Assembly: GCA_900319375.1 (NCBI GenBank)
Contig: ONOI01000001.1
Location: forward strand, 89,745 to 153,744
Reading direction: 5' to 3'
Length of the DNA stretch: 64,000 nucleotides
DNA from: an uncultured Bacteroidales bacterium
GTDB lineage: Bacteria > Bacteroidota > Bacteroidia > Bacteroidales > UBA932
In this document: positions 34,825 through 55,174 of the stretch, one piece after another
How the letters are laid out: each line of letters opens with the position of its first letter
Numbering within the stretch: the stretch's first letter is position 1
Notes under the pieces: model-generated
What the model was told of the DNA's origin: nothing
The model's database searches: none
The model's input: only the letters and a program-made list of their open reading frames with translations
Position numbers and translations under genes: made by a program

Positions 34825-34872
34825 TGCTATATTACTTTAAATAATTTGTTTCGTCTCTTGCAAAAAGGGCTG

Positions 34873-34903
34873 CAAATTTAACACTATTTCTCGGATCTGC
34901 AAA
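34873..34903 (-). promoter_or_regulatory. Promoter of the rplP-rplQ ribosomal operon
   Basis: The minus strand reads TTTG (34903-34900), 19 nt, TAAATTTG (34880-34873), an exact match to the Bacteroidota housekeeping promoter. The predicted start is about 34866, giving a leader of roughly 42 nt before rplP. It lies in the 254-bp gap between rplP and the DUF4294 gene; the remainder of that gap is AT-rich and holds only the divergent promoter. Confidence 0.85.
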
Positions 34904-35028
34904 TTATTTTTTAAAAATTTTCGACACAAAATTCGAATACTTAACTCCCGTATTTTGGGCGAGTTGCTAAAAAGCCTCAAAAAAAGTTTGCGAACTTTTC
35001 GACGCGATTTTGCATCTATAATCGGAAC

Positions 35029-35059
35029 TTTGGCTCGAAATGTGATTTATGTATATTTG
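35029..35059 (+). promoter_or_regulatory. Promoter of the DUF4294 gene
   Basis: TTTG at 35029-35032, 19 nt, TATATTTG at 35052-35059, an exact consensus match. The predicted start near 35066 leaves about 13 nt before ATG 35079. Confidence 0.85.
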
Positions 35060-35078
35060 CAATCGAACTGAAATCAGT

Positions 35079-35741
35079 ATGAAACGGGTTCTTCTATCCC
35101 TGATGGTTTTACTGTGTCTCGGCGTACCTACCGAGGCTCAGGAAGGCGTTCAGACCCACGAGCCCGATGTTGAATATTGGGACTATATCTCCCCCAGTTC
35201 CGTTACCGGCCGCCGCAAGCGAACTCGCAAGGAGCGCAGGGAATGGCGCAGACATTACCGCCTGGTCTACAATTTCAACAAGGTATACCCCTACGCTCTG
35301 GTCGGCCGAAAGCTGATGAATCAGGTAGACAGTACTATCGCCGCAGACCATCTCGACAAGGGCGTACGCGCGCGCTACATAAATGATGTAGAAAAAGAGC
35401 TTCTCAGACTCTTTGAAAAGGATATAAGGAATACTACCATCACCCAGGGCTTCCTGCTGGTCAGGCTGGTCGACCGCGAATGCGGACACACCGTCTACGA
35501 CATAATCAAAGACTATGAGGGCGGATTTGCCGCCGGCTTCTGGAATCTGGTCGGAAAACTATTCGACCAGGATCTGAAATCCCACTACGACCCCGAAGGG
35601 GTGGATAAAGACACCGAAGAACTGATCCGCGTCTGGGAGAGCGGAGCCTGGGATGAGTTCTATTGGGAGATTTTCGGGAAATACCCGGAAAAGACGGTGA
35701 TCGCTACTGACCGACTCTCAACGACTGCCCGTCAAAAATAA
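35079..35741 (+). CDS. DUF4294 protein, secreted
   Basis: ATG 35079 is chosen for its signal peptide (KRVLLSLMVLLCLGVPTEAQ) and the promoter just upstream. The 220-residue protein has a basic region (GRRKRTRKERREWRRHYRLV), then VYPYAL, ELLRLFEKDIRNTTITQG and QDLKSHYDPEGVDKDTEELI, the conserved blocks of DUF4294, a Bacteroidota family of unknown function. The product is likely periplasmic. Its 3' end overlaps the 3' end of lpxH on the other strand by 38 bp, so the two genes are convergent. Confidence 0.85.
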   Translation: MKRVLLSLMVLLCLGVPTEAQEGVQTHEPDVEYWDYISPSSVTGRRKRTRKERREWRRHYRLVYNFNKVYPYALVGRKLMNQVDSTIAADHLDKGVRARYINDVEKELLRLFEKDIRNTTITQGFLLVRLVDRECGHTVYDIIKDYEGGFAAGFWNLVGKLFDQDLKSHYDPEGVDKDTEELIRVWESGAWDEFYWEIFGKYPEKTVIATDRLSTTARQK

Positions 35742-36438
35742 GGCAGGGTGTTCCGCCCTTAAGCCAGGTATCCATTACGAATAACTCGCTGCCGTCCGAC
35801 AAGGTCTGGCGGGCTTCGACGTGGAAATGACCGAAGATGAAAAAGTCTGCCTTACGGCCGGCGGCAATCTCGTCTTCCGCGAAACGGACCAGCGGCTCGT
35901 CGGCTCCCTTCCACTCGTAGGGGGTGTGGGTATAGCGGTTGCGGGTTGAGCAGCGGGTGGCTAAACTGAACGCGAGGCGAGGATGGAGCGCGCTGAAAAG
36001 CGCCTGGCAGAAGCGGCTCTTGAACACCCTCATCATAAAACGGTAGCCGCGGGTCGCGTCCTTAAGGCCGTCTCCATGGCCAAGGCAGAAGCGGCGCCCG
36101 CCGATCTCGGTATAGAACGGCTGCTCGATCTTTCGCATTCCCAGCGACTCGAAGTAACCGTAACACCAGACGTCGTGGTTGCCGGGCATGAACCAGACCT
36201 CGACCCCGTGGTCCATCAGGTCGATGAGCTGAGCGATCGCGCGGACCCCCTCTTTAGGAACTACGTCGCGATATTCGTACCAGAAGTCCCAGATATCGCC
36301 GAGAAGGTAAAGGGCTTTCGCCTCGCGCGGTAGACTCTTCAGCCAGAGGACGAAGCGCTCCTCGCGCTCTTTCGGATCCGCGGTAGTCAGCCCGAGGTGG
36401 ACATCAGACGTAAAAAATACCTTCGTGCGCTCCATCAT
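35704..36438 (-). CDS. lpxH: UDP-2,3-diacylglucosamine pyrophosphatase-like metallophosphatase (LpxH type)
   Basis: The 244-residue calcineurin-like phosphoesterase has the metal-binding blocks FFTSDVHLG, LLGDIWDFWYEY, MPGNHDVW, CLGHGDG and FGHFHVEA. LpxH cleaves UDP-diacylglucosamine to lipid X in lipid A synthesis; DIWDFW is typical of that subfamily. The start is ATG 36438, overlapping the uppP stop (TAATG), with ATG 36435 as an alternative. It is the last gene of the ftsX-DUF3098-uppP run, an envelope-synthesis operon, and is convergent with DUF4294. Confidence 0.85.
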   Translation of the reverse strand: MMERTKVFFTSDVHLGLTTADPKEREERFVLWLKSLPREAKALYLLGDIWDFWYEYRDVVPKEGVRAIAQLIDLMDHGVEVWFMPGNHDVWCYGYFESLGMRKIEQPFYTEIGGRRFCLGHGDGLKDATRGYRFMMRVFKSRFCQALFSALHPRLAFSLATRCSTRNRYTHTPYEWKGADEPLVRFAEDEIAAGRKADFFIFGHFHVEARQTLSDGSELFVMDTWLKGGTPCLIFDGQSLRVGQ

Positions 36439-37247
36439 TAGAAGATCTGGGTAAGGATTACGATAAAGCCTACGATTACGCAGTAAAGCGCGAACCATTT
36501 AAGCTGGGCTTTCTTGACGAGGGCGATCATGGCCTTGCAGGCGAAAAGGCCGGTGATGAAGGCGGAGATGAAGCCGAGCGCCAGCGGCAGGGCCCCGACC
36601 GTAGAGGCGGCAAGCTCGCCGCCCACTATCGAGAGGAACATCTCCCCGAGGATGGGGATGATGACCATCAGGAACGAGAACTGGGCGACCACTTCCCTCT
36701 TCACTCCGGCGATAAGACCGGTTGAGATAGTCGCGCCGCTGCGCGACAGGCCCGGGAGGACAGCGAACGCCTGCCCGATGCCGATTACCAGTGCCTGCCA
36801 GAACGAGAGCCCGTTTCGGGCAGCGTTCTCCCCCTCCCGGGCCTTCGCCTTCGCCGCGGCATCCGAGAAGTACAGCAGAACTGAGGTTATAAGCAGCGAA
36901 CCGCCTACTACCCAGAGCGAAGAGAACAGCTCTTCGACCTTGTCCTTGAAGAACAGGCCCACTATCATAACGGGTATGGTTCCTACCAGTATCTTGCAGA
37001 TGTAGTCAGTCTCGTCGTTGTACTTAAACTTGAAAAGACCGGAGAACAACTGTACTATAGACTTCCAGAACACTACTATAGTAGCCAGAACGGTAGCCGC
37101 GTGGACGGTAACCTCGAACATAAGGTCTTCCGACGCCTCGACTCCGAGAAGTTCCCTGAAGATAGCGAGATGTCCGCTGCTGCTGACGGGGAGAAACTCC
37201 GTCAGGCCCTGAACTATTCCAAGAATAATTGCCTGCAACCAGTCCAT
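36438..37247 (-). CDS. uppP: Undecaprenyl-diphosphate phosphatase
   Basis: The 269-residue membrane protein (BacA family) starts at ATG 37247, directly after the DUF3098 stop. It has about 8 spans and both family motifs: GLTEFLPVSSSGH near the N-terminus and PGLSRSGATIS in the middle. It regenerates the undecaprenyl carrier lipid used for peptidoglycan and O-antigen. The ftsX-DUF3098-uppP order is a conserved Bacteroidota arrangement. Confidence 0.96.
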   Translation of the reverse strand: MDWLQAIILGIVQGLTEFLPVSSSGHLAIFRELLGVEASEDLMFEVTVHAATVLATIVVFWKSIVQLFSGLFKFKYNDETDYICKILVGTIPVMIVGLFFKDKVEELFSSLWVVGGSLLITSVLLYFSDAAAKAKAREGENAARNGLSFWQALVIGIGQAFAVLPGLSRSGATISTGLIAGVKREVVAQFSFLMVIIPILGEMFLSIVGGELAASTVGALPLALGFISAFITGLFACKAMIALVKKAQLKWFALYCVIVGFIVILTQIF

Positions 37248-37248
37248 A

Positions 37249-37485
37249 CTATTCCTCCTCCTTAGGTTTACGCATAATGGCCACGACAACCACCACGATG
37301 CCGGCCACTATTACCACCGGGGCCGCGACCAGCCTCCTGAAGTCAAACATAGCATAGTTGAACACTTCGGGGTCTTTCACCCCACCGCCCGCCAGGAGGA
37401 CGTAACCGGCCACCATCACAATCAGACCTGCCAGAAGCAGCCTGATACTTTTACGGGACATAGGCATTTTATCCATAGAGTTCAT
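37249..37485 (-). CDS. DUF3098 small membrane protein
   Basis: The 78-residue protein has two membrane spans (about 14-32 and 53-69) with the loop GGGVKDPEVFNYAMFDFRR between them, the DUF3098 pattern. The function is unknown. Start candidates are ATG 37485 (17-bp overlap with ftsX), 37476 and 37467. It is tucked between ftsX and uppP, which suggests a role linked to division or cell-wall lipid recycling. Confidence 0.85.
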   Translation of the reverse strand: MNSMDKMPMSRKSIRLLLAGLIVMVAGYVLLAGGGVKDPEVFNYAMFDFRRLVAAPVVIVAGIVVVVVAIMRKPKEEE

Positions 37486-38347
37486 CGTTCGATAGTTTCA
37501 CGATCTTGGAGACCACCGCATTTCCGCAGAGCCAGCAAAGCACTACGCCGAAGGCGATCACGCTGAGGGCCGTACCCACGAAAGCGGGGATGGTGAATAT
37601 TTCATAGATTTCGGGATGCGATTTCCATACCAGATAGACGGCCAGCGCGATAAGCCCGAGGGCGATAAGCGCTGCGATCAGGCCCTGGGCCACCGTCCTG
37701 CGGACGTACGGGCGGGCGATAAAGCTGCGGCTGGCGCCGACCAGCTGCATGGTATGGATCGTAAACCTGTTTGCATAAAGATTGAGCCTGACCGTGTTCG
37801 CGATCAGGGCCACGGAGATAACCACGAGCAGCGCGAGCACCAGCAAAATAGCCAGCCAGACCTTGCCGAAGCTGACGCTCAGCGACTCGACCAGCGGGAT
37901 CCTGCAGTCTACCTCGTCTACTATCGGAGAGTCCGACAGGCGTTTGTGGACGGTAAGCAGGCTGTCCGGATTCATCCATGCCGCGCGGACCGTAACCTCG
38001 ACCGAACTAGGCACGGGCGAACTCTCGAACACATCCAGGAAATCCTCTCCCAGCATCTCCCTCATCTCCTTTTCCCCCTCCTGAACGCTCACATAACGGG
38101 TGTCCTTGACGAAAGGCTCCGCCTCGATCTTGCGCTGATATGCGACAGCCTGAACGGCGGGAGTATCCTTTTTCAGAATAACCGTTACATGTATGTGTTC
38201 GCGGAAATAAGCCCCGACGGCTGAAGCGTTGAAAGCCAGAAACGAAGCCGCTCCGACCAGCAGAAGAACCATGCTGATACTGATTACGGAGGACAAATAA
38301 GAGCCCGCCAGCCTTCTTCTTATAATTTTGTTTTGTTTTCGGGACAT
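37469..38347 (-). CDS. ftsX: Cell-division protein FtsX
   Basis: ATG 38347 is chosen (MSRKQNKIIRRRLAGSYLSS); an upstream in-frame ATG at 38407 would run into the divergent gene. The 292-residue protein has one N-terminal span, a periplasmic domain with EPFVKDTRYVSVQEGEKEMREM, then three C-terminal spans, the FtsX layout. With FtsE it controls peptidoglycan hydrolases at the septum. ftsE is not in the window, as usual in this phylum where the two are separated. Confidence 0.95.
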   Translation of the reverse strand: MSRKQNKIIRRRLAGSYLSSVISISMVLLLVGAASFLAFNASAVGAYFREHIHVTVILKKDTPAVQAVAYQRKIEAEPFVKDTRYVSVQEGEKEMREMLGEDFLDVFESSPVPSSVEVTVRAAWMNPDSLLTVHKRLSDSPIVDEVDCRIPLVESLSVSFGKVWLAILLVLALLVVISVALIANTVRLNLYANRFTIHTMQLVGASRSFIARPYVRRTVAQGLIAALIALGLIALAVYLVWKSHPEIYEIFTIPAFVGTALSVIAFGVVLCWLCGNAVVSKIVKLSNDELYG

Positions 38348-38377
38348 AATTCGGGGCGAATTTAGAAAAAATTTTCG

Positions 38378-38385
38378 TATCTTTG
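38378..38385 (+). promoter_or_regulatory. -7 box of the glycogen-synthase-like gene
   Basis: TATCTTTG, full match to TAnnTTTG, ends 6 nt before ATG 38392. With the G at -7 the first transcribed base would be the A of the ATG, a leaderless message. Confidence 0.6.
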
Positions 38386-38391
38386 AGCCAA

Positions 38392-39213
38392 ATGGAGAAT
38401 TCCGCACAAAAAGTACTTTTCGTCTGCTCTGAAATATTTCCTTATGTTCCGGAGAGTGAGATCGCGACCTTAGGCCGCTATCTGCCTCAGGGTACTCAGG
38501 AAAGAAAAAAGGAAATTCGTGCCTTCATGCCCCGCTACGGATGCATCAACGAGCGTAAGAATCAGCTCCACGAAGTCATCAGACTCTCGGGCATGAACCT
38601 CATTATCGACAATATGGACAGGCCCCTTATAATTAAGGTCGCCAGTATCGCCGCGGCGCATACTCAGGTCTATTTTATCGACAACGAAGATTACTTCAAG
38701 CGCAAACAGATCGAGCGCGACGAGGAGGGTAAATTCTTCGAAGACAACGACGAACGTGCGATTTTCTTCGCCCGTGGCGTCCTCGAGACCGTCAAGAAGC
38801 TCCGCTGGGCCCCGGACATCATCCACTGCAGCGGATGGATCTCACACCTTTTGCCTCTGTATCTCAAGAAAGCGTATAAAGACGACCCTATCTTCAGCCA
38901 CAGCAAGGTAGTGCTCTCGCTTCACGACGACCTCCCCAAGGAGCAGTTCTCTCCCTCTTTTGCCGACAAGATTTACTTCGGCGCAGTCAGCGAGAAGGAC
39001 ATCGACCTCCTGAAGGCCGCCCCCGATGGCATAAATCTTGCCAAAACTGCGGCCAGGTTCTCAGACGGAGTGGTGGTAGCTGGCGAGAATATCCCGGCTT
39101 CGCTTATCAGCTATTGCAAAGACCGCGGACTCAAAGTCGCCAAAATCAAAGCAAAAAGCTTCGCCGACGGAACCTACATAGACGAATACAACGCTTTTTA
39201 CGATCAGCTGTAG
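38392..39213 (+). CDS. Glycogen/starch-synthase-like protein, N-terminal domain only
   Basis: The 273-residue protein matches the N-terminal Rossmann half of GT5 glycogen synthases: KVLFVCSEIFPYVPESEIA, EIRAFMPRYG, and APDIIHCSGWISHLLPLYLK. The second glycosyltransferase half is absent, and the ADP-glucose-binding KxGGL motif near the start is replaced by PESEIA, so catalysis is unlikely. Such short forms are conserved in Bacteroidota beside a DUF4270 lipoprotein, exactly as here (the two genes abut), so a shared unknown envelope or storage role is possible. Confidence 0.85.
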   Translation: MENSAQKVLFVCSEIFPYVPESEIATLGRYLPQGTQERKKEIRAFMPRYGCINERKNQLHEVIRLSGMNLIIDNMDRPLIIKVASIAAAHTQVYFIDNEDYFKRKQIERDEEGKFFEDNDERAIFFARGVLETVKKLRWAPDIIHCSGWISHLLPLYLKKAYKDDPIFSHSKVVLSLHDDLPKEQFSPSFADKIYFGAVSEKDIDLLKAAPDGINLAKTAARFSDGVVVAGENIPASLISYCKDRGLKVAKIKAKSFADGTYIDEYNAFYDQL

Positions 39214-40884
39214 ATGAAATTACTCGGACACATCATACTCGGCGCAGCTATTATCGGCTGCGTTTCCTGTGTTGAGACAGACGGACTTATCGGGGGAAAC
39301 CTCATCCCTATAGATTCCCAGTATCAGGTTTTTTCAACGGAACTCCCCATCGACAAGGTGGAGATGAAGATGGCAGACAGCCTCTCGGGCTTTTCAAGTT
39401 CGAGGATAGTGATGGGGGCCGTCCGTGACGACATCTTCGGTCTTTCTACCCGCAGCTGTGCCCTGACCCTGGTCCCGCTCGCAGACACTCTCGATTTCGG
39501 TGACGTCCAGTCCGTCAAGACGTTCCACCTCCACGCCACCTTCGACACTACCGCCACCAGCCAGGCCGGCCAGGAAAGAATACTTCAGAACGTATATGCA
39601 TACGAACTGAACGACGGAACCGACTGGACTAAACTGATGGACGCCAACGATGTAGCCGGCCTTCTCGGCCACAAACCAGCCAGCGTCATCAAGGGAACCC
39701 CGCTTCTTAACGGCGCCGCTGATCTGGACCTCGACTTTACAGACGAATACGCCAGCGCATACGTCAACTACCTCAACGGAAAGACTCTGTCAGACTCTAC
39801 AACCTTCAAGGCTTTCCTCGAGAAGTTCCCGGGAATCTGGATTGAGACAGACTCGCCCAGCGGAAACGGCGGCCGCCTCAACTCCTTCGACCTCCAGATG
39901 GAGTTCAACAGTTCGCAGTATTATCTGGAAGACAATTACGGAACCCTTACGATCAATACTATATACGATCCCGAGGCAGGCCCGGTAGACACAACCTTCT
40001 ATTTTTATGCCGGAGCCCAGAAATATAACGAGGTAAAGGCCCTGTTCTCAGACTATAAGACGGGAACCTTCCCGCAATACGCCTTCAACCTTACCTCACA
40101 TTCGACCCGCACAATGGCAGGAAGCGCAGCAGACAAGGTCTACCTTGAAGGCGGAGCAGGCCTTAAGCCCGTTATCACCGCCCGCACCCTCATCGACCTT
40201 GCCTCCAAAGCAATCTCAGATACTATTGCGGCCCATGGAATGGACGCTTCGCTGCTTTCCAAGACCGTAGTCAACAAGGCAACCATAGTTCTGCCATACG
40301 ACATGCCGGCAGACTATACCGATATAGACAATTACTTCCCTCCGAGGCTCAGCCCCACCTGCCGAATCAGGACGGATACTACCTCAACCTTCATGGGACT
40401 TACAGACGCAAGTTCGGAAAATGAAGACCAGGGCGACATCAAGCGCTCTATCTGCAGCTATACTCCTGACATCACCTATCACCTCCAGCAGCTCCTCAAC
40501 ACTACAGACGACAACACTAATCTCGTCAGGGGAAACTATGACATCTGGCTGCTCATAATGAATACTCAGGAGACTACTACCACCTCCAATTCCAACAACG
40601 ACCTCAGCGAATACTATCAGTATCTCGCTTATCAGAGCTATTACAACAGCATGTACGGAGGATATGGCGGTTACGGCGGATATGGTTACGGCGGCTATGG
40701 CAGCAATTACTACAGCAACTATTACAGCTATATGATGGCTGCAATGTATGCCGGAGGCCAGACTACTACCTCCACCACCTACGAGCTGGATAAGGATTTC
40801 TATTACAGAGTAGCTCTCTGCGGACCGGCCTCCACTACGGAAGTTCCCAAACTCCGCATTACATTCTCGGTCCCGAGACAATAA
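39214..40884 (+). CDS. DUF4270 lipoprotein
   Basis: The 556-residue lipoprotein (lipobox VSC, Cys20) has the DUF4270 start, with IGGNLIPIDSQYQVFSTEL and then the SSRIVMGAVRDDIFG block. Near residues 475-505 is a low-complexity Tyr/Gly/Ser run built from GGY units, probably a flexible surface linker. DUF4270 proteins are predicted outer-membrane lipoproteins of unknown function. The start immediately follows the stop of the glycogen-synthase-like gene, so both are co-transcribed. The stop codon abuts that of the opposing PEGA-FISUMP gene with no intervening base. Confidence 0.88.
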   Translation: MKLLGHIILGAAIIGCVSCVETDGLIGGNLIPIDSQYQVFSTELPIDKVEMKMADSLSGFSSSRIVMGAVRDDIFGLSTRSCALTLVPLADTLDFGDVQSVKTFHLHATFDTTATSQAGQERILQNVYAYELNDGTDWTKLMDANDVAGLLGHKPASVIKGTPLLNGAADLDLDFTDEYASAYVNYLNGKTLSDSTTFKAFLEKFPGIWIETDSPSGNGGRLNSFDLQMEFNSSQYYLEDNYGTLTINTIYDPEAGPVDTTFYFYAGAQKYNEVKALFSDYKTGTFPQYAFNLTSHSTRTMAGSAADKVYLEGGAGLKPVITARTLIDLASKAISDTIAAHGMDASLLSKTVVNKATIVLPYDMPADYTDIDNYFPPRLSPTCRIRTDTTSTFMGLTDASSENEDQGDIKRSICSYTPDITYHLQQLLNTTDDNTNLVRGNYDIWLLIMNTQETTTTSNSNNDLSEYYQYLAYQSYYNSMYGGYGGYGGYGYGGYGSNYYSNYYSYMMAAMYAGGQTTTSTTYELDKDFYYRVALCGPASTTEVPKLRITFSVPRQ

Positions 40885-43491
40885 CTAATCAGCAGTGTAA
40901 TCATCACCCTTCCAGCTGCCTATAGTATAGGAGCCGGAGGGACGATAATATATGCCGCGACCGTTGCGCGAGCCGTCTTCCCAGTAACCAAACCATGCAC
41001 CCCCGTCTGTCCAGAGGAAGACGCCCCATCCATGTCGTTTGCCATCCTTGGTCTCGCCTACGTACATATTGCCGTTGGTGTACTCGATACACTCAAACTT
41101 ATATGCTTTGAAGCGGCCTTCCATGGGATAAGACTCCGTAGGCGCGTCGTTCTTGAAATCGCCGAAGTAGATCAGGGTTCCGTTTTTGTCGTAGCAGGTG
41201 CCGGTTCCCTCTTTGATATTCTTTGAGTAGCTGCCTACGAAGTATGCGCAGTCTTTGCAATTATTGATGTAACGGCCGTCTTTCCCTATGAAATAGATTC
41301 CCATCCCATCGCGGTCGCCGTCTTTATAACGGCCGAAGTACATATCATCATCGTCGCTCCACCAATACGCACCATAACCATTGCGGCCGTCGCTCAACTG
41401 GCCGCGATATTTTCCGTTGGTGTAAGTCCATTCCGGATTGTCAAACGACTTCTTCATCATATTGCGCCAATCTCCCCGGACAAGGGCGTTGCCGGTTACA
41501 GCAGAAGAGGAATAGTTGCTCTCGCCGCTTATCACCGGGCGGACGGACATTCCGAAATAACGGAACAGGTCATACACCTTAAAGGTGCCGGTCCAGTTTG
41601 TAAGGCAGTATGCGCTATGCGAGCTCGAGAGGGTTGAAGACCAGTACTCCAGCTCTTTCCCTGCAAGCATATTGTTGTATCCTGCAGCCGGAAGGAAAAT
41701 TGACTGGCCGGTAGTTTTGCTGACAAACCTATAGCCATTCACGCCATCAAGGGTTATCCAGGAGTAAGTACACTTGTCGAGCAACTCCTGCAATTCTTCC
41801 TTGGAAGGCATACGCCAACGGCCGCCCCAATTCTGTCTTGCAATATCATCGGCATAGGACAGACTGGTAAGATTATCTACTGGGCCGTATTTAGAATTCG
41901 TAACGTATTTCGAAATTTTTACATTGTCCCAGGAATCTCCGCTTGTCCTGAAGCGATAATTCGGCCAGCTATATTCTCCCTTCGAAGACGTCTCTCCCCA
42001 GGCAAACAACTTTCCACCGTCGGCTGGCTTCGAAGCGCCCACATTGCAGGTCGCCCATTTTACGCTCAGACCAAGGTCCACCCATTCGTGGCCATTTTCA
42101 GAGCCACTGACCGAAGATGGTTGGGCGGGAGTCGGCTTTGCCGGGGTCGGCTGAGGCGCGCTCTTTACCTTAAGATCCTTTGAAAGCTGGGTAGTCTGGT
42201 CGCGCTGAATGTCAACTGTGAAGGTCAGCGGATCATAACCGTCTTTTCGGAGCTCGACACTGTGTTTGCCGATAAGAATAGTCTGTGAGAAGATAGTATT
42301 GCCTGCATGCTCGCCGTCAATCCAGACCTCAGCGCGGCTGGGGTTGGACTGTATCTGAAGTTCGCCGAACATAGGAACCGGAGCGTCAACTTTGACATCT
42401 ACTGTTTGGCCTTCGATAGTGGAACCGATTACTCCGCGGGATTGCGGGATGTGTGAGGGACGGCTTGCCTCTACTTTGTAGGTCAGTTGGCTGTTCAACT
42501 GAGTCTTCGACCCGCTCTTGCCGCGGAAAACTTCCTTGCCCGCCGGATCGGTAACCACTATGTCCGCCAGGGGGTCATCACAAAGGAGAGTAACCACTCC
42601 GAACTGAGGCTTGAGCTCGACCTCCCAGTATAACAGGCTACCGTCTCCACTTAGCGTTTCCCGAGAATTTGTTACGTAGTAATTGTCCTTACGGAAGGTG
42701 AACATATGTTCGCCCTTGGATATCTTCGTGGATTGTTCGATAGGGGTTGTCCCTAGAAACTCTCCGTCTACATACACATCCGTTCCATCAGGATAGCAGT
42801 CAATATTATAGGTGTTGTATGCCGGTTTGAGCTTGACCTTAACCTCTTTCATCCCCCTCTTCACATTGATATTGGAAGTCCAGGTTTCGTAGAATTTACT
42901 GCTTACTTCGAACCAGTAGCTGCCTTCGGCGAGGAATGCGTCATAGTAGCCATCCGTTATTTCCTTGAAATTGATGACTTCGTTTTTGCTGAGTCCATAG
43001 GCGACGCGCGCCTGCTTAGGGTCGATAGTCATCTGGACTCCTACCAGTCCTGAACCACTGTATGTCTTCACTATCGTCACCGACGATTCTACGTTCAGCC
43101 TCATCCTGTAGACTTTACCGGGCTTGAGCGAGACTCCTATCCAGTCGGTGGGGGTATAGCCCTCAGAAGTGAACATGATGTTGGTGACTTTAGGCGAAAC
43201 CCAATACCACCATTCTCCGGTCTCCTGACGGTAATTCGAGCCTCCTCTGGGAGGCGCAACCGGGGCCATCCCTCCCCTGGTCTGGAGAACCAGGGTCCCG
43301 GACAGGCTGTTGTCCGGGACGACCTTGATAATCGCGCAAACATTGTCGTTGACATCGGTCTGACGATAGTAGGATGTCGCGTCCGCATCGTCGGGGACCA
43401 GCTCAACTTTTGATCCGACGCTCATCGATATCTGCCCGAAGGCTGTCAGGCCGGCGAGCAGAAGGCAGAGAGAGGTAAGCAGCTTTTTCAT
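40885..43491 (-). CDS. PEGA-FISUMP-MORN fusion protein, secreted
   Basis: The 868-residue protein has a signal peptide ending GQ at about 20, a conserved N-terminal beta domain (about 20-205), PEGA-type repeats (about 230-290 and 375-430, e.g. IDCYPDGTDVYVDGEFLGTT), a Pro/Ala/Ser linker (about 440-465), a FISUMP domain (about 465-650: DLGLSVKWATCNVGA, RWRMPSKEELQELLDKC, SVRPV) and MORN-type repeats (about 690-868, GxYxNGKYRGQ-like, MYFGRYKDGDRDG). PEGA domains are envelope surface modules, FISUMP is a C-type-lectin-like fold, and MORN repeats bind membranes or partners. Its N-terminal half is a paralogue of the protein at 44992-46968. It is last in a five-gene operon. Confidence 0.85.
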   Translation of the reverse strand: MKKLLTSLCLLLAGLTAFGQISMSVGSKVELVPDDADATSYYRQTDVNDNVCAIIKVVPDNSLSGTLVLQTRGGMAPVAPPRGGSNYRQETGEWWYWVSPKVTNIMFTSEGYTPTDWIGVSLKPGKVYRMRLNVESSVTIVKTYSGSGLVGVQMTIDPKQARVAYGLSKNEVINFKEITDGYYDAFLAEGSYWFEVSSKFYETWTSNINVKRGMKEVKVKLKPAYNTYNIDCYPDGTDVYVDGEFLGTTPIEQSTKISKGEHMFTFRKDNYYVTNSRETLSGDGSLLYWEVELKPQFGVVTLLCDDPLADIVVTDPAGKEVFRGKSGSKTQLNSQLTYKVEASRPSHIPQSRGVIGSTIEGQTVDVKVDAPVPMFGELQIQSNPSRAEVWIDGEHAGNTIFSQTILIGKHSVELRKDGYDPLTFTVDIQRDQTTQLSKDLKVKSAPQPTPAKPTPAQPSSVSGSENGHEWVDLGLSVKWATCNVGASKPADGGKLFAWGETSSKGEYSWPNYRFRTSGDSWDNVKISKYVTNSKYGPVDNLTSLSYADDIARQNWGGRWRMPSKEELQELLDKCTYSWITLDGVNGYRFVSKTTGQSIFLPAAGYNNMLAGKELEYWSSTLSSSHSAYCLTNWTGTFKVYDLFRYFGMSVRPVISGESNYSSSAVTGNALVRGDWRNMMKKSFDNPEWTYTNGKYRGQLSDGRNGYGAYWWSDDDDMYFGRYKDGDRDGMGIYFIGKDGRYINNCKDCAYFVGSYSKNIKEGTGTCYDKNGTLIYFGDFKNDAPTESYPMEGRFKAYKFECIEYTNGNMYVGETKDGKRHGWGVFLWTDGGAWFGYWEDGSRNGRGIYYRPSGSYTIGSWKGDDYTAD

Positions 43492-43495
43492 GGGG

Positions 43496-44989: not shown

Positions 44990-44991
44990 CG

Positions 44992-48833: not shown

Positions 48834-48836
48834 TGT

Positions 48837-49514
48837 TTACTCCTCGTCTTCGTCCTCTACCTGGAAGATAGTTCCGAGGATGTCTTTCTGAACCTTCTCG
48901 AAAGCCTTGAGTTCCTTAGTGGAGAGCTCCTTCGGTTTGTAGTTGAGGCAGTTTTTGTAGATCTTCTCCCAGTTCTTTGCGGGCATACCTACACGGGCCC
49001 AGATCTTATAGAGCTTGCTTTCCTGATCGAACTGGATTACGGTCTCGCCGAAGGGGGTGAAGCCCTGTACGGTACTGGTACTTACCTGAGAAAGATACCT
49101 GCTGAAGTCCTCGGTTGCGCGGGTTACGCGGGTGACTTCTTCCTCGCTTCCCTGATCTGTAATCTCGCTGATAGCGTCAGAAACCTTCTGGTCAATGTTC
49201 TTCACATTGAAAGTATTCGAGATCAGAGAGTAAGCGGCGCTGCGGGCCATCTCCTCCGCGATCCTCTGGTTCTGGGACTCGCCTACTGCGGTGAAGTAAA
49301 CGAAAGGAACTTCTACGATCTTACCGCTCTTGTAGCCTTCGCCCATTGCGTAGCCGAACTGCGACCAAGGGGCCTGGTTTACTGTTGTTCCCTCAACGGT
49401 TTCGGTCTGAGTTACCTCGCCGGGCTGAGGCTGAGTTGCTTTCTTGGAAGATCCGCAGGAAATAGCAGCGACCATTACTGCCGCCACTGCGATGATAGAA
49501 AGAATGCGTTTCAT
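48837..49514 (-). CDS. LPP20-like lipoprotein
   Basis: ATG 49514 gives a lipoprotein signal (lipobox AISC, Cys20). The 225-residue protein has conserved blocks SGKIVEVPFVYFTAVGES, QNQRIAEEMARSAAYSLIS and GETVIQFDQESKLYKIWARV. The same blocks occur, shortened, in the lipoprotein at 50319-50705, so the two are paralogues; the longer one has about 50 extra residues before GET. The role is unknown. It heads the five-gene PEGA/transglutaminase operon and has a -7 box at 49551-49558. The first codons and leader are copied in front of the gene at 50273. Confidence 0.75.
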   Translation of the reverse strand: MKRILSIIAVAAVMVAAISCGSSKKATQPQPGEVTQTETVEGTTVNQAPWSQFGYAMGEGYKSGKIVEVPFVYFTAVGESQNQRIAEEMARSAAYSLISNTFNVKNIDQKVSDAISEITDQGSEEEVTRVTRATEDFSRYLSQVSTSTVQGFTPFGETVIQFDQESKLYKIWARVGMPAKNWEKIYKNCLNYKPKELSTKELKAFEKVQKDILGTIFQVEDEDEE

Positions 49515-49558
49515 AAGTGTGTTATTTAGTTTTAATATGTTGTCGGTTTTCAAATATA
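49486..49558. repeat. Duplicated leader and signal-peptide start, copy A
   Basis: This 73-bp segment matches 50245-50317 at 67 positions. It covers the first codons of the LPP20-like lipoprotein, its leader and its -7 box. Copy A keeps an intact -7 box, ATG and lipoprotein signal. Confidence 0.85.
49551..49558 (-). promoter_or_regulatory. -7 box of the five-gene envelope operon
   Basis: The minus strand reads TATATTTG, 36 nt before ATG 49514, giving a leader of about 30 nt. No -33 TTTG lies 19 nt upstream. The terminator of the preceding gene begins 23 bp beyond. Confidence 0.55.
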
Positions 49559-49580
49559 CTTCTTTTTTCTTATTTCCAAT

Positions 49581-49612
49581 AAAAAGAGAACGACTCTTCA
49601 GCCGTTCTCCTT
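49581..49612 (-). terminator. Terminator of the 49629 lipoprotein gene, copy of the acpP terminator
   Basis: The minus strand forms a 10-bp stem (one G-U pair, loop GAAG) followed by five T residues, 17 bp after the stop at 49629. All 32 bp are identical to 50722-50753 behind acpP, so this is a duplicated terminator. Confidence 0.85.
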
Positions 49613-49628
49613 GTACGCGTTTCCGATA

Positions 49629-50273
49629 TCATTCGTCCAGAATAATTATCTCTGGCGGGTTATACATGAATCGGCAAGTAATCGTCCTCTCCTTTCCTGT
49701 AAGGGTTAGCACGAATACGCTATTTTGAGGAGGGGTATGGTCGGCGTCAAATTCAATATTGCCGCGTAGACCGACAAGGTCCCAATCTGACAAATTGACG
49801 TCTGCCAAACTACAAAATTTTGTTGTAGGAAGCTCGGGCCATGGAATTGAATCGAAATTAGCGTAAGTCTCATACTTTACCTTTACATACGGATTCCATG
49901 TTTCGCCAGGCTCAATTCCATACCATTTGTCCTCGCATGAAATATTAATGCTTGTCAATCTACAAATGTATGGAGCATTAGGCTGCTCATCCCTATATCC
50001 TCCTTTATTATCCCCCAGTTCTTCCCGAATCTGCTTCACCTCCTCATAAGAGTATCTGCCGGACCGGTCAAATTCCCACGACATCCCTCTTGTGCCATAA
50101 GGTTGGGACAGTGTTATCTTCTTGGGGTAAAAGAAATCATCGAAATAATATGACCAATAACTACCTGTTCCAGGAAGTGGAAGGTTCTGCTCGGATGTGC
50201 CCTCATTATTGGGTTTACATCCGCAAAAAACAGCCCCCGAAACGACTGCGATGATAGAAAGAATGCGTTTCAC
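49629..50273 (-). CDS. Hypothetical lipoprotein with GTG start
   Basis: The 214-residue product begins with GTG 50273; the first ten codons match those of the LPP20-like lipoprotein (KRILSIIAV), where the same position is ATG. The lipobox is FCGC (Cys19). The mature part is not LPP20-like: it has a Trp/Tyr-rich start (GTGSYWSYYFDDFFYP), two Cys (in YICRL and ISCEDK) and a beta-rich end (VFVLTLTGKERTITCRF). No family was recognised with confidence. The copied -7 box in front of it is damaged, so it is probably read through from the gene at 50705. A copied terminator follows. Confidence 0.7.
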   Translation of the reverse strand: MKRILSIIAVVSGAVFCGCKPNNEGTSEQNLPLPGTGSYWSYYFDDFFYPKKITLSQPYGTRGMSWEFDRSGRYSYEEVKQIREELGDNKGGYRDEQPNAPYICRLTSINISCEDKWYGIEPGETWNPYVKVKYETYANFDSIPWPELPTTKFCSLADVNLSDWDLVGLRGNIEFDADHTPPQNSVFVLTLTGKERTITCRFMYNPPEIIILDE

Positions 50274-50317
50274 AAGTGTGTTATTTAGTTTTAATATGTT
50301 GCCAGTCTTCGAAGATA
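50245..50317. repeat. Duplicated leader and signal-peptide start, copy B
   Basis: This segment matches 49486-49558 at 67 of 73 positions. Differences include ATG to GTG at the start codon and two changes in the -7 box (TATATTTG became TATCTTCG), which should disable it. It begins inside the 49629 gene and ends 1 bp before the stop codon of the upstream lipoprotein gene. Confidence 0.85.
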
Positions 50318-50318
50318 A

Positions 50319-50705
50319 TCATTTCTTTTTATATCTGTCGATATTCTGCCTTGGAACCCCGACTCTTAAGTATACCGTATAGAGTTTGCTGTCTTCATCG
50401 AAGCGGATTATCGTTTCGCCGACACGGGTTACGCCGCTTAGTTTCGCTCTGTCTTTCCTGAACGCCTCTGCCATCCTGGCCTTAGCATCAGCTTCGGCTT
50501 TCGACTCTGCCTGACTCCGGATAGTAGATTGACCGATACCGATGAAACAGGAGTATTCCACCTCCACGATCTTACCGTCCAGATACGTGTCCATTTTCTC
50601 ATAACTGAACTCCGGCCACGGATCGTCCAGGTTGAGCTTTTTATGTGAAGCGCCGCATCCGGTAAGGATCATCGCTATTGAAAGTATGGTTATCAGCCGT
50701 TTCAT
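50319..50705 (-). CDS. Short LPP20-like lipoprotein
   Basis: The 128-residue lipoprotein (lipobox LTGC, Cys17) shares DGKIVEVEYSCFIGIGQS and GETIIRFDEDSKLYTVYLRVG with the protein at 48837-49514 but lacks its middle segment, so it is a shortened paralogue. A helical Ala/Glu/Lys stretch (QAESKAEADAKARMAEAF) is typical of LPP20-like domains. It has a -7 box 5 nt before the ATG and sits behind the acpP terminator. The GTG lipoprotein follows after 45 bp. Confidence 0.75.
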   Translation of the reverse strand: MKRLITILSIAMILTGCGASHKKLNLDDPWPEFSYEKMDTYLDGKIVEVEYSCFIGIGQSTIRSQAESKAEADAKARMAEAFRKDRAKLSGVTRVGETIIRFDEDSKLYTVYLRVGVPRQNIDRYKKK

Positions 50706-50710
50706 GCCCT

Positions 50711-50718: not shown

Positions 50719-50721
50719 CAA

Positions 50722-50753: not shown

Positions 50754-50775
50754 ATAGGTTTGTTGCGATTAAGAA

Positions 50776-51018
50776 TTAACCGAGCTTCTCGGCGACCTTG
50801 TCGCAAGCGTCCTTTACAGTCGAGATGTTAGCAGTCTCCTCATCGGGAATCTTGATGCCGAACACCTTCTCGAACTCCATAAGAAGTTCTACAGTGTCGA
50901 GAGAATCTGCTCCCAGATCATTTGTGAAATTTGCGGTCTCTGTAACCTCAGAAGGTTCTACACCGAGTTTGTCAACGATGATAGCCTGAACCTTTTTTAC
51001 GATTTCAGCGTACTCCAT
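50776..51018 (-). CDS. acpP: Acyl carrier protein
   Basis: The 80-residue acidic protein has the phosphopantetheine site [20 protein letters not shown], with Ser39 as the modified residue. It carries acyl chains in fatty-acid synthesis. The usual neighbour fabF is missing; the gene stands alone between a canonical promoter and its own terminator. Confidence 0.98.
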
Positions 51019-51078
51019 TGTGATTTAAATTTTAGTAGTTTGTATTTTTTAACTCTTTCTTTCTAACCGATTGAACTG

Positions 51079-51109
51079 CAAAGTTAGTTAAATTTTTTAT
51101 TATCCCAAA
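51079..51109 (-). promoter_or_regulatory. Promoter of acpP
   Basis: The minus strand reads TTTG (51109-51106), 19 nt, TAACTTTG (51086-51079), an exact match to the Bacteroidota consensus. The leader would be about 54 nt. Confidence 0.85.
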
Positions 51110-51141
51110 TCCGCCCCGCTTCCCCTCACGTCCGAATATAT

Positions 51142-51253
51142 ATTCTGAGCCCCCGGTATGGCCTCCGCACTCATTTCCGCCAAACTGCCGTCCCGACAAC
51201 TTGCCCCACACCATGTTCTAGTAAGGGTGAGGTTTGCGCCTAAGGCCGAAATC
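51142..51253. repeat. First pair of degenerate 72-73 bp repeat units
   Basis: The motif (A/G)TTCT followed by a G/C-rich box recurs at 51142 and 51215, 73 bp apart. The second copy (TTCTAGTAAGGGTG, then AAGGCCGAAATC) resembles the unit at 51488 (TTCTGGTAGGGGTG, then AAGGCCGAAATC). The similarity is lower than in the second pair. Confidence 0.45.
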
Positions 51254-51294
51254 GGCCATAGCCGTCCCGCTCACCTATCCCTGGATACCTTCTG

Positions 51295-51310
51295 CAAGGG
51301 GCGCCCCTTG
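51295..51310. repeat. 16-bp perfect palindrome
   Basis: CAAGGGGCGCCCCTTG is self-complementary over its full length. It could be a protein-binding site or a hairpin without a loop; nothing nearby identifies a binder. Confidence 0.6.
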
Positions 51311-51378
51311 AGGCTACCTGGCGGAAACACTCATTCCGTCGGAAATACGCCCTCGATCTTCGCCGGCAACAAGAAGAA

Positions 51379-51522
51379 TCGCCAAGATGAAGCCAGGCGA
51401 TATGCCGTACAGCATATTCTGAGAGGGGTATGCTGGCTTCATACGACGAAATCGGCATGTGAAGCCAGGCCGAAGCCCTCAGAGGCCATTCTGGTAGGGG
51501 TGGTCTGGCTTCATCTTGGCGA
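51379..51522. repeat. Nested inverted and direct repeats, two 56-bp units
   Basis: An 18-bp perfect inverted repeat (51379-51396 with 51505-51522) encloses two 56-bp units at 51387-51442 and 51459-51514, identical at 39 of 56 positions and spaced 72 bp. Each unit begins with (A/G)TGAAGCCAG and ends with CTGGCTTCAT, so each can fold as a hairpin. Differences fall in the inner part. Confidence 0.8.
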
Positions 51523-51631
51523 AAAGGCCGAAATCCGCGCCAAAAGCGCCTCAATCGGCGCCGGAAAGGGGAAAAACGGAGCGATCCGCGCCAAAAACCC
51601 GGAAATAGGCGCCGCACAGCCGAAAACTTCG

Positions 51632-51663
51632 TACTACTCTGCGGAAATTCCCGCAGAGTAGTA
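51632..51663. terminator. Hairpin resembling the 21396 terminator, possible end of pnuC transcript
   Basis: A perfect 13-bp stem with a 6-nt loop; its 12-bp core is identical to that of the terminator at 21396-21429. It has no good T-tract on either side, so termination is uncertain. It lies about 75 bp after the pnuC stop. A weaker 7-bp hairpin (51697-51703 with 51719-51725) lies in between. Confidence 0.5.
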
Positions 51664-51736
51664 GCAACTTTCTGCCAAGTAGCTCTGAAAAGCATAGTCT
51701 CCCAGCGAAAAAACAGTAGGGAGACGACGAAATAAT

Positions 51737-52507
51737 TTATGCTTCCGGTTTGCTGAGTTTCCACCAGATGCGGACTCCGTTGATGCCGTTGATAAGGTAG
51801 AAAGAGTATTTTACCAGAGGGATGATGGCGTAACTGGCAGAAGGGTCGTGGATAAGGATTCCGGCCCACATCACTATCGAAGAGATATTGACCAGCAGCC
51901 AGAGATACCACTGCTCCATATAGGCGAATGCGCCCATCGCGAAGGCGACTATATTGGCCGTTGTGATGAGTGCGTCGAGAATAATTTTTCCGGCAGAAAG
52001 ATCCGAGCCCGACTTAGAAAGGGCGAACCAGGAGATGACGGCAGCGAGAGCGAACACCCCGACGAAAATGCCACCGAATTTCAGCCATTCAGAACCCTTG
52101 CCGATACGCTGGGCCTTGACCTGCTTTTTCGCTCCCGCTCCCTTTTTCCGCCATTGGAAGAATCCCACGAACTCCATCGGAATCATATACAGGACATGGA
52201 GAAGGAACTGCGAAGGATTCTTGCTGTCGAAAAGAATATAGGAGTAGATTGCCACGTCAATCAAGCCGAAAAGGAAGGTCCAGATCGAGCCGTTGGCAGA
52301 ACATACAGTACTGGCCACTCCGGCGAGAGCCCCCACGGCGGTAAGCAGAAGCAACAGCACCCGCGACTCCGAGAGAGACTGCACGAACAGGCCCCAATCT
52401 GTAATTCCCAAGTCGCGCATCTTCGCAAGACACGAAAGCACTACACAGATCGACATCCCAGCAAGGATGAAGACGTTGAACCATTTATTGAATTTCTCTT
52501 CGTTCAT
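51737..52507 (-). CDS. pnuC: Nicotinamide riboside transporter PnuC-like
   Basis: The 256-residue inner-membrane protein has about 8 spans and PnuC blocks YMIPMEFVGFFQWRKKG and EQWYLWLLVNISSIVMW, whose aromatic residues line the substrate site. It admits nicotinamide riboside (or, in some relatives, thiamine or riboflavin precursors) by facilitated diffusion. No riboswitch or salvage kinase is nearby to settle the substrate. The start overlaps the uvrC stop by 4 bp, so it is the third gene of the tlpA-uvrC-pnuC operon. Confidence 0.9.
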   Translation of the reverse strand: MNEEKFNKWFNVFILAGMSICVVLSCLAKMRDLGITDWGLFVQSLSESRVLLLLLTAVGALAGVASTVCSANGSIWTFLFGLIDVAIYSYILFDSKNPSQFLLHVLYMIPMEFVGFFQWRKKGAGAKKQVKAQRIGKGSEWLKFGGIFVGVFALAAVISWFALSKSGSDLSAGKIILDALITTANIVAFAMGAFAYMEQWYLWLLVNISSIVMWAGILIHDPSASYAIIPLVKYSFYLINGINGVRIWWKLSKPEA

Positions 52508-54291
52508 TTCAGTTTTTCTTTAATTGTCGAGGCGAGCTTAGGGCCGACGAGCGCGGCGAGGTCGGCCTCTGAGGCGGCGGCGATTCGGGCGACGCTGCCG
52601 AAGCGCAGCAGCAGGCGCTGCTGCGTACGCTCGCCGACTCCCGGGATATCGTCGAGCACGGAATGGACCTGCGACTTGCGCCGTAGGCTACGGTGGAAGG
52701 TAATGCCGAAGCGGTGAGCTTCGTCGCGAATATGGGTTATCACCCTGAATGCCTGCGAGTTGCGGTCGAGGAACAGCGGATACGGATCCCCCATCCGGAT
52801 GATTTCCTCCAGCCTCTCAGCCAGACCGACTATCGTAAAGCGTCCTTCGAGTCCCAGTTCCTGAATCGCCTGCCAGGCGTAATTGAGCTGGCCCTTGCCG
52901 CCGTCGATTACGACCAGCTGGGGCAGATCGTCGGGGGCCTCGGCCAGCATGCGGGAATAACGGCGGTTCACAACCTCTTTCATGGTCGCATAATCGTTCG
53001 CGCCCACGACTGTCTTTATCTTGAACTTCCGGTAGTCCTTCTTCGACGGGAGCCCCCCGCGGAACACGACGCACGCGCCGACCGGGTTGGTTCCCAGGAT
53101 ATTCGAGTTATCGAAGCACTCGATATGTTCCGGAAGTTCCTTCATCCCGAGCGCGTCGCGAATCTCCTCCAGAGCCTTTTTCCTGAACTGCTCCGGATCG
53201 GTCTTCTCCAGCTGTCTCAGCGAATTGAAATGGAACTCCTTCGCATTCTTCGCGCTTAGTTCAAGCAGCGCGAGCTTGTCGCCGCGAGAAGGAATCTTAA
53301 ACTCCACTCCCTCTATCTCCACATCCGGCATAAAAGGCACTATCACCTCCCTTGACAGCTCCCCGAACTGCGACTCGATCTCAGCGATAAAGGCGCTCAG
53401 CATCGACTCGCGGCTCTCCTCGATCTTACTCTTGAGCGACAGATTCAGCGACTGGATCACCGCCCCGCCGCGAATGCGCATATAATTGCCCCATGCGGAA
53501 AAATTGTTTTCGAAATCCAGCGAGAAGACATCGGCGTCCACATCGCGGGCAGCCTGAATGACGCTCTTTGAGTAGTGTTCATTCAGCACGTCCAACTTTT
53601 CCTTGCATTCCTGCGCCGTCTCAAAATCGAGCTCGGCCGCGGCCTGGTTCATACGCGCGGTATACTCGCGGATGAGCGCTGCGGTATCTCCCTTGAGGAT
53701 GCGGACTATCTCTTCGATATCTCGGGCATATTCTTCCTGGGAATAGGCTCCGATGCAGGGGCCCTTACACTTCCCGATATGGAAATCAAGGCAGGGACGG
53801 TATTTGTGGCGAAGTATCGCCTCCGAATCTATCTTATACTTGCAGGACCTCAGGGGGTACGCGGACCCGAAAAAATCTACCAGTGCATGGGCATGGCGGG
53901 CGGAACTGTAAGGCCCGAAATAGCGGGCGCCCTTAGTCACTCGGCGGGTAATGAACACCCGCGGAAAGGGCTCGTCTGTAACGCATATCCATGGATAGGT
54001 TTTCGAATCCTTTAATAATATATTGTACTTCGGCTTGTACTGCTTGATAAGATTGTTTTCAAGCAGAAGGGCATCTGCCTCCGAATCTACTACCGAATAC
54101 TGAGCGTCCGCAATCTTGCTTACAAGGACGCGGGTCTTCGCGTTCAGCCTTTCGGGCGCCACAAAGTATTGCGCGACCCGTTTATGGAGATCCTTAGCCT
54201 TGCCTACATAGATAACCGTTCCCTCGGAATCGTAATAACGATAGACTCCGGGGGAATGCGGAAACAGTGCTATTTTTTCTCTAACGTCCAA
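52504..54291 (-). CDS. uvrC: Excinuclease ABC subunit C
   Basis: The 595-residue protein has a GIY-YIG nuclease domain (about 10-95, SPGVYRYYDSEGTVIYVGKA), a UVR domain (about 200-235), an RNase H-like endonuclease domain with IECFDNSNILGTNPVG and VVIDGGKGQL, and a C-terminal helix-hairpin-helix region (DDIPGVGERTQQRLLLRFG). It makes the two incisions in nucleotide excision repair. It overlaps tlpA-like upstream by 11 bp and pnuC downstream by 4 bp. Confidence 0.98.
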   Translation of the reverse strand: MDVREKIALFPHSPGVYRYYDSEGTVIYVGKAKDLHKRVAQYFVAPERLNAKTRVLVSKIADAQYSVVDSEADALLLENNLIKQYKPKYNILLKDSKTYPWICVTDEPFPRVFITRRVTKGARYFGPYSSARHAHALVDFFGSAYPLRSCKYKIDSEAILRHKYRPCLDFHIGKCKGPCIGAYSQEEYARDIEEIVRILKGDTAALIREYTARMNQAAAELDFETAQECKEKLDVLNEHYSKSVIQAARDVDADVFSLDFENNFSAWGNYMRIRGGAVIQSLNLSLKSKIEESRESMLSAFIAEIESQFGELSREVIVPFMPDVEIEGVEFKIPSRGDKLALLELSAKNAKEFHFNSLRQLEKTDPEQFRKKALEEIRDALGMKELPEHIECFDNSNILGTNPVGACVVFRGGLPSKKDYRKFKIKTVVGANDYATMKEVVNRRYSRMLAEAPDDLPQLVVIDGGKGQLNYAWQAIQELGLEGRFTIVGLAERLEEIIRMGDPYPLFLDRNSQAFRVITHIRDEAHRFGITFHRSLRRKSQVHSVLDDIPGVGERTQQRLLLRFGSVARIAAASEADLAALVGPKLASTIKEKLK

Positions 54292-55093
54292 GAGCCTCCT
54301 TAACTGCAGCCTCGATAGCCGCGCCGCGAATACCCTTCTTAACGATAGTTCCGTCGGGGCCGAAGAGCATTATCTGAGGGATGGAGTCGAATCCATAAGC
54401 CTCGGAAGCGATCTTCTGGGCATTGATTATCTGGTTCCAGACAACGCCGTGTTCTGCGGCGGCTTTCTTTGTCTCTGCGGGATCGTCCCAGACTGCTACG
54501 CTCAGGACATCGAAATCGGGGCCTGCGTAGGTCTCATAGACGTGTTTGATGTTCGGGATTTCCCTCTTGCAGGGACCGCACCAGCTGGCCCAGAAGTCAA
54601 CGAGAACCCACTTCCCGCGGCCGACGAAATCGGAGAACTTCACTCCGTCAACTTCGAAATCGATAAAAGGCTTTCCTTCTGCGGATTTCTTAAGAGTCTC
54701 GAGGCTCTTTTTTACCTTAACTACAAAATCGGAGCCCTGAATCTCGGGGCCAAGGGTCGCGATGAGTTTCTCTGCCTCTTCCGGCTCAAGATCTCCGTAG
54801 ACCTCCTTAAAGGCCATCAGACCAAGTTCGTTGTTGCGGTTCTTCTTAACGGTCTTGAGACAAAGATCGGTGTATTTACCCTGAGCGGACTCGTAGACGG
54901 ACTGAATTTTAGCCTCTTTTTCAGCCTCCGTAAGGGCTGCGTCTGCCTCGACCGTCTCAACCGTAGTGTTGAACTCTGCTACGATAGCCTCCAGGTCCTG
55001 CTGGAACTTCGCCTTTTTTTCTTCGATATTGCCGCTTGAGCAGGCAACTACCATCGCGGCAGTTACCACTGCCAGATAAAAAACCTTCTTCAT
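54281..55093 (-). CDS. Thioredoxin-like lipoprotein (TlpA/ResA family)
   Basis: The 270-residue lipoprotein (lipobox VVAC, Cys18) has a charged helical region (about 22-110) typical of DUF4369-less TlpA relatives and a thioredoxin fold with VDFWASWCGPCKREIP; the active-site cysteines are Cys172 and Cys175. It would reduce disulfides in the periplasm or during cytochrome maturation. It begins only 20 bp behind the rpsC terminator, and no clear promoter fits in between, so the operon may depend on a site inside the terminator region or on read-through from rpsC. uvrC follows with overlap. Confidence 0.9.
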   Translation of the reverse strand: MKKVFYLAVVTAAMVVACSSGNIEEKKAKFQQDLEAIVAEFNTTVETVEADAALTEAEKEAKIQSVYESAQGKYTDLCLKTVKKNRNNELGLMAFKEVYGDLEPEEAEKLIATLGPEIQGSDFVVKVKKSLETLKKSAEGKPFIDFEVDGVKFSDFVGRGKWVLVDFWASWCGPCKREIPNIKHVYETYAGPDFDVLSVAVWDDPAETKKAAAEHGVVWNQIINAQKIASEAYGFDSIPQIMLFGPDGTIVKKGIRGAAIEAAVKEALGR

Positions 55094-55105
55094 AATAAAG
55101 CAATT

Positions 55106-55144
55106 AAAAAAACAACCGGCTGCGCCCGAAAGCGAAACCGGTTG
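55106..55144 (-). terminator. Terminator after rpsC
   Basis: The minus strand forms a 7-bp stem (55138-55144 with 55113-55119) around an 18-nt loop that can pair further, followed by a seven-T tract. It lies 30 bp after the rpsC stop and ends the rplC-rpsC transcript, which in most bacteria would continue into rplP. Confidence 0.8.
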
Positions 55145-55174
55145 TAAATATAAGTAATTTTTCCGTGAGGAAAA

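Follow-up and report, generated by a model that had tools for sequence, protein, structure and literature searches.

Apparent single-origin dismantling of the ribosomal S10 operon into three units in the Candidatus Cryptobacteroides family

Introduction

The window analyzed here is a stretch of 64,000 nucleotides from an uncultured Bacteroidales bacterium, positions 89745-153744 of contig ONOI01000001.1 (C42) in a metagenome-assembled genome (MAG) of 1.91 Mb in 80 contigs. It carries ribosomal protein genes of the S10, spc and alpha operons in two blocks that lie 20.35 kb apart, with the break between rpsC and rplP, and a second break separates rpsJ from rplC. Few gene junctions in bacteria are as strongly conserved as rpsJ-rplC and rpsC-rplP, and with the S10 operon delimited as in E. 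coli, the two cuts lie within it. We find the same two cuts throughout a clade of 19 genera. The split of the S10 operon into three units apparently has a single origin, and it is still maintained. Genes that are normally contiguous stand apart in one-contig assemblies, and the genomes that share this state descend from a common branch with intact outgroups. Among the papers listed by full-text searches of a collection that lacks most subscription journals, none deals with this break.

Results and Discussion

The split cluster in the window

Each of the two blocks is contiguous, lies on the minus strand and keeps the usual gene order, as identified from open reading frames, gene order and Pfam:

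24310..34824, minus strand: spc plus alpha block with rplP first (rplP-rpmC-rpsQ-rplN-rplX-rplE-rpsN-rpsH-rplF-rplR-rpsE-rpmD-rplO-secY-map-infA-rpsM-rpsK-rpsD-rpoA-rplQ)
55175..59044, minus strand: seven-gene middle block of the S10 operon (rplC-rplD-rplW-rplB-rpsS-rplV-rpsC)

Pfam identifies rplP (34405-34824, minus strand) and rpsC (55175-55924, minus strand) and confirms rplC, rplD, rplW, rplB, rpsS and rplV as well as rpmC through rplQ. Gene order and Pfam thereby bear out an earlier note on this DNA, made from the letters alone, which had described a cluster split by about 20 kb with both blocks on the minus strand in ancestral order; the gap also holds envelope, lipoprotein-like, repair and transport genes, as the note had said, and lipid genes besides. 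Its second break, the absence of rpsJ before rplC, is likewise real and common to the same clade. Loss of rpsJ is ruled out, as the gene lies elsewhere on the same contig (C42:33861-34145, plus strand), 55.6 kb before the window start and directly 3' of rpsL-rpsG-fusA.

Distribution and origin of the split

We compared the positions of rpsC and rplP in three genome sets, comprising relatives (n=101), the family (n=149, 25 genera) and the phylum (n=118); in the following, genera carry numbers with g and genomes numbers with G, the window's genus being g1. Both genes were found in 134 of the 149 family genomes, with counts redone by script and some family matches partial. They lie apart in 105/105 scorable genomes of 19 genera and are adjacent in 29/29 genomes of the six genera g47, g48, g49, g60, g61 and g64, so that the relatives, whose gene order the earlier note had proposed to check, are not all intact. 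The two genes share a contig in 19 of the 105 split genomes (10.9-454 kb) and occupy different contigs in 86. Three genomes that each consist of one contig, G103, G110 and G176, have rpsC-rplP gaps of 442, 275 and 155 kb. Among the same-genus genomes of the relatives set (n=60), 42 have both genes and 0 have them adjacent; 20 of the 23 with both on one contig show a distance of 10.3-26.9 kb (start to start) on one strand, and the remaining three show 64-506 kb on opposite strands. In other families of the order (n=40) the genes are adjacent in 38/38 scorable genomes; one lacks the pair, and G071 was left unscored because rpsC and rplP each lie close to an end of the available stretch. The phylum set contributes 113/118 genomes with both genes, which are adjacent in 112/112 once the window's own genome is excluded. 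Outside the family the junction is therefore intact in 150/150 scorable genomes, in line with the strong conservation of rpsC-rplP contiguity that the earlier note had assumed.

The second cut follows the same pattern. The gene rpsJ is out of its usual place in 99/99 split genomes with rpsC and rpsJ, the nearest case, in G136, being on the opposite strand at a distance of 13.8 kb, whereas in intact genera it precedes rpsC by 3.8-5.6 kb (start to start) in 24/29 genomes, with the two genes on different contigs in the other five. All scorable split genomes have the two cuts together, and no scorable intact genome has either. Named database records agree: Among the best 80 for rpsC, rplP lies within 1.5 kb of rpsC in 0/73 records with at least 1.5 kb beyond rpsC, and rpsJ is seen, about 10 kb off, in 1/47 records with at least 5 kb before rpsC. 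The rpsC product of the window is 99% identical to that of a yak-rumen Bacteroidales MAG; the 80 records include Candidatus Cryptobacteroides gallistercoris (87%), faecipullorum (87%) and intestinipullorum (84%), and the window's genus is very likely Cryptobacteroides, of the GTDB family UBA932.

A tree of 20 concatenated cluster proteins from 49 genomes (3284 columns kept; quick search, with the SH-like approximate likelihood ratio test, SH-aLRT, as the only support measure) places all 39 split genomes on one side of a single branch with an SH-aLRT of 100, and the trait requires one change. The tree covers 18 of the 19 split genera, g65 having been left out for too few genes.

Promoter-like and terminator-like signals at the new ends

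The new ends of the two blocks carry the following elements, of which the rplP site recurs as TAnnTTTG in split genomes:

34873..34903, minus strand: promoter-like site of rplP, exact TTTG-N19-TAAATTTG (motif)
34825..34872, minus strand: rplP 5' leader, 48 bases between box and ATG
59098..59127, minus strand: promoter-like site of rplC, TTG-N19-TATCTTTG (motif)
55106..55145, minus strand: intrinsic-terminator-like hairpin plus T run after rpsC (hairpin scan)

The Bacteroides main-type promoter pattern, in which TTG or TTTG lies about 19 bases before TAnnTTTG, thus stands before both genes as a predicted promoter. Within 160-200 bases before rplP, TAnnTTTG occurs in 103/104 split genomes of 18 genera (shuffled mean 12.6), the spaced form TTG-N18-22-TAnnTTTG in 97/104 (1.1) and the extended form TAnnTTTGCAnYC in 101/104 (0.06). 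Before rplC, the spaced pattern is found in 35/35 split genomes (shuffled 0.26) and the extended form in 30/35. Start codons as first called, uncorrected, give lower values for a similar spaced pattern (37/44 for rplP, 32/35 for rplC). In intact genomes TAnnTTTG precedes rplP in 0/10 cases and rplC in 0/10 cases, and the rpsC-rplP spacer measures just 20-29 bases. The box ends 86-92 bases before rplP at 27/48 sites and 58-65 bases before rplC at 28/37 sites; the corresponding distance for rplP of the window is 48. At rplP and rplC alike, the -7 box (34873-34880; 59098-59105) is followed in most split genomes by GCAnYC, a shared C-rich start region that may place the new units under a common growth-rate signal.

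After rpsC, a hairpin of at most -10 kcal/mol followed by TTTT within 150 bases is present in 32/44 split genomes (shuffles 1.0) vs 0/10 intact ones. A simple consensus terminator scan of 54900-55300 listed none, probably since the central part of the rpsC hairpin is longer than the scan's permitted loop. The hairpin and the exact rplP motif are the terminator and promoter named in the earlier note; of its idea that transcription had been repaired at both ends, the conserved promoter-like and terminator-like signals stand, and their activity is presumed from their sequence.

In most of the genus the rplP leader comprises about 80-100 bases and is similar in length and well conserved. Many of these leaders carry a conserved stretch around CCCAACCAGCTGATAC; that of the window is shorter and lacks it. 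Such conservation would suit a newly arisen regulatory RNA that makes up for the feedback control no longer provided by the operon, as would leader folding (96 leaders, mean z -1.4; z below -2 in 25). Against this, 48 distinct leaders of the genus contain no four-pair helix whose covariation exceeds column shuffles (best 1.09; shuffled mean 1.04, max 1.33), and the window has no Rfam match at gathering score. RNAalifold returned zero energy on the gappy leader alignments just as on all their shuffles, which favours neither view. The leader shows no conserved covarying structure of the kind known from ribosomal-protein leader RNAs, and we regard a regulatory role of this kind as improbable. The Bacteroidia leader RNAs given in a part of PMC7247131 include those for L13 and S4 and none for rplP or rplC.

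Positions of the three units and the genes between them

In the fetched split loci that cover the blocks, rplC to rpsC stay together, as do rplP and the genes that follow it; what varies is their position relative to each other. Outside g1, rpsC and rplP share a contig in 12 split genomes; 11 of these show distances of 47-454 kb, and G101 (g42) has 22 kb with different genes in between. The gap in the window has three parts, assigned by Pfam and locus comparison:

35049..40884, mixed strands: rplP neighbour string of DUF4294 (plus), LpxH-like phosphoesterase (minus), uppP (minus), DUF3098 (minus), ftsX (minus), GT5-type gene (plus) and a 556-aa gene (plus)
40885..50705, minus strand: PEGA, MORN, Lcl_C-like (below cut-off) and NTF2-like lipoprotein-type genes, about 10 kb
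50776..55093, minus strand: acyl carrier protein, PnuC, UvrC and TlpA/ResA-like thioredoxin, the string that in the genus connects rpsC with the side of rplP

The 20 kb gap is accordingly the sum of a 10 kb string (thioredoxin-uvrC-pnuC-acyl carrier protein-...-DUF4294), found between rpsC and rplP in the window's genus only among the loci fetched, and the roughly 10 kb of lipoprotein-type genes, which among the loci compared occur in the window alone. The DUF4294-to-556-aa string (its LpxH-like call scores below the NCBIfam cut-off, and its 556-aa gene has no family match) lies upstream of rplP in g1, g43, g44, g45, g50, g51, g53, g57 and g62 and partially in g56, g58 and g59; it was not seen in the fetched loci of g42, g46, g52, g54, g55 and g63. 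One or two genes sometimes sit between DUF4294 and rplP in split genera. At 10 loci of intact relatives, no DUF4294 gene lies within about 1.4 kb of uppP or an LpxH-like gene. In locus L174 (G183) the string is inverted as one unit between rpsC and rplP. The GT5-type gene of the string (38383-39213, 276 aa) occurs in many split genera; its match to starch/glycogen synthase is limited to the N-terminal catalytic domain.

The genes 3' of rpsC vary by genus, a beta-lactamase-family gene being recurrent in several. Thioredoxin or uvrC stands beside rpsC in g1 only, and not in all of g1 (absent in G041 and G213). In three far-split genomes (G016, G033, G044) the string has come apart at the uvrC-pnuC border: Thioredoxin and uvrC remain with rpsC, pnuC and acyl carrier protein with rplP. 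Because the two halves are divided in this way, we read the near arrangement as having arisen in an ancestor within g1 and as having later been broken again. As other split genera mostly have the pieces far apart, the 10-20 kb spacing in the window's genus looks secondary, a return of the pieces to each other's vicinity with a local insert in addition, which parsimony supports weakly. Selection for closeness might even have brought the rplC-rpsC block, in the ancestor of the genus, near to rplP again, upstream on the same strand at a distance of about 10 kb, a broken superoperon partly re-assembling, although we think this rather improbable. Block distance to dnaA showed no clear pattern in three one-contig genomes.

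In 19 split genomes rpsJ and rplP are found on a single contig, and in 13 of these on one strand. Nine of the 13 have them 39-59 kb apart, namely eight genomes of g44, g45 and g50 plus G213 of g1. Several genes of the rpsJ-rplP gap in G103 (g44) recur, in reversed order, in that of G109 (g50). This suggests that the former site of the seven-gene block was taken over by other DNA. A second semi-stable layout is seen in g51 (G176, G187, G197, G148, G207, G226), where rpsJ and rpsC lie on opposite strands, 33-37 kb apart.

Proposed history and alternative explanations

We consider a two-cut, three-unit rearrangement in one ancestor within the Candidatus Cryptobacteroides family, followed by movement of the pieces, to be very probable. 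A chromosome rearrangement in this ancestor would have cut the str-S10-spc-alpha run at rpsJ|rplC and rpsC|rplP, inside the S10 operon, leaving rpsL-rpsG-fusA-rpsJ, rplC-rpsC and rplP-rplQ. The genes rplC and rplP would then have acquired main-type promoters (TTTG / TAnnTTTG) and rpsC a terminator, making each piece its own transcription unit, and later rearrangements would have carried these pieces, each still intact, to other chromosomal positions. The rplC-rpsC piece may have settled upstream of rplP, on its strand and about 10 kb from it, in the ancestor of the window's genus. The lineage of the window may then have gained a further 10 kb or so of surface-protein-like genes between rpsC and rplP. 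The breaks, their restriction to a single clade and the promoter-like and terminator-like signals can be read directly from the nucleotides; we infer the secondary nature of the near arrangement and the number of steps behind the two cuts. Candidate physical routes are transposition, paired inversions or segmental duplication with gene loss. For comparable cases, a part of Brandis 2021 (PMC8046335) proposes segmental duplication with gene loss or transposon-directed recombination. No transposase or integrase was found by Pfam among 10 neighbour proteins (one without a family) at the block edges of deep-branching split genera.

The earlier note was right about a real, old break; a simple insertion of about 20 kb that pushes the cluster apart is less well supported. 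If a gene block had entered between rpsC and rplP with the cluster otherwise in place, the far layouts would derive from the near one. In the window, and in 20/23 same-genus genomes with both genes on one contig, the two sides have a common strand and keep the ancestral order, which fits such an insertion, and a near ancestor of the whole split clade costs just two parsimony steps more. Yet rpsJ is detached as well, no fetched genome has a shorter, partial insertion, and split genera outside the genus have the pieces at 47-454 kb or on other contigs (G101 with 22 kb excepted) with other genes beside rpsC, which makes this explanation unlikely. The two cuts may also have been separate events in one stem lineage, each an insertion followed by full separation. 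This possibility, which we rate somewhat below even, is compatible with the two-cut rearrangement and concerns only the number of steps: Stepwise patterns are frequent in other operon clusters according to a part of Brandis 2021 (PMC8046335), and the shared strand and 39-59 kb spacing of rpsJ and rplP in g44, g45, g50 and G213, together with the genes common to one g44 and one g50 gap, point the same way, whereas the joint presence or absence of both cuts in all scorable genomes, with no intermediate seen, speaks against it. That the genomes are mostly MAGs might raise suspicion of an assembly or binning artefact; with the same state in the one-contig genomes G103, G110 and G176 and in all 105 scorable split genomes, and with flanking genes and promoter-like sites across the junctions common to split genomes, its probability is negligible, and we reject assembly error.

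Several observations weigh against the two-cut rearrangement with later movement of the pieces. Parsimony by distance, with G101 (22 kb) scored as far, yields a tie for the ancestor of g1 (near 6 vs far 6 steps), and for the ancestor of all split genomes the far state (6 steps) is only two steps cheaper than the near state (8). No one-cut genome was seen, although intermediates may have been missed, and the two cuts need not have come from one shared event. The rpsC hairpin is missing in 12/44 split genomes, and a hairpin follows rpsJ in only 3/14. Furthermore, most genomes compared are MAGs, related genomes give non-independent counts, and the tree proteins come from the cluster itself.

Significance and comparison with known systems

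The loss of the rpsJ-rplC and rpsC-rplP junctions on one branch and its retention by 19 genera constitute a natural experiment on the purpose of ribosomal-protein operon linkage, in which intact sister genera permit comparison of protein balance, growth-rate control and gene dosage. The split is, moreover, a clean marker of descent within the family.

The predicted promoters resemble those of the Bacteroides main sigma factor as given in a part of PMC7366714, with TTTG at about -33 and TAnnTTTG at -7; here, they precede genes whose intact relatives have none at this place. In Aquifex aeolicus (PMC3879981, in part), str, S10, spc and alpha also lie at different places while relatives keep them together. 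That case sets one species against two relatives and separates the cluster operon by operon, whereas the present one covers a clade of 19 genera with cuts inside S10. Comparable, too, are the supercluster breaks of Brandis 2021 (PMC8046335), the relevant part of which traces rare breaks of the same supercluster on a tree and allows for pieces that drift further; a search of this paper for the term 'bacteroid' gave no match. Its commonest class, 75 of 115 rearrangements, breaks links between operons and leaves the operons intact, and the present case does not belong to it, as both cuts lie within S10. The break is ordinary in kind and unusual in place and extent.

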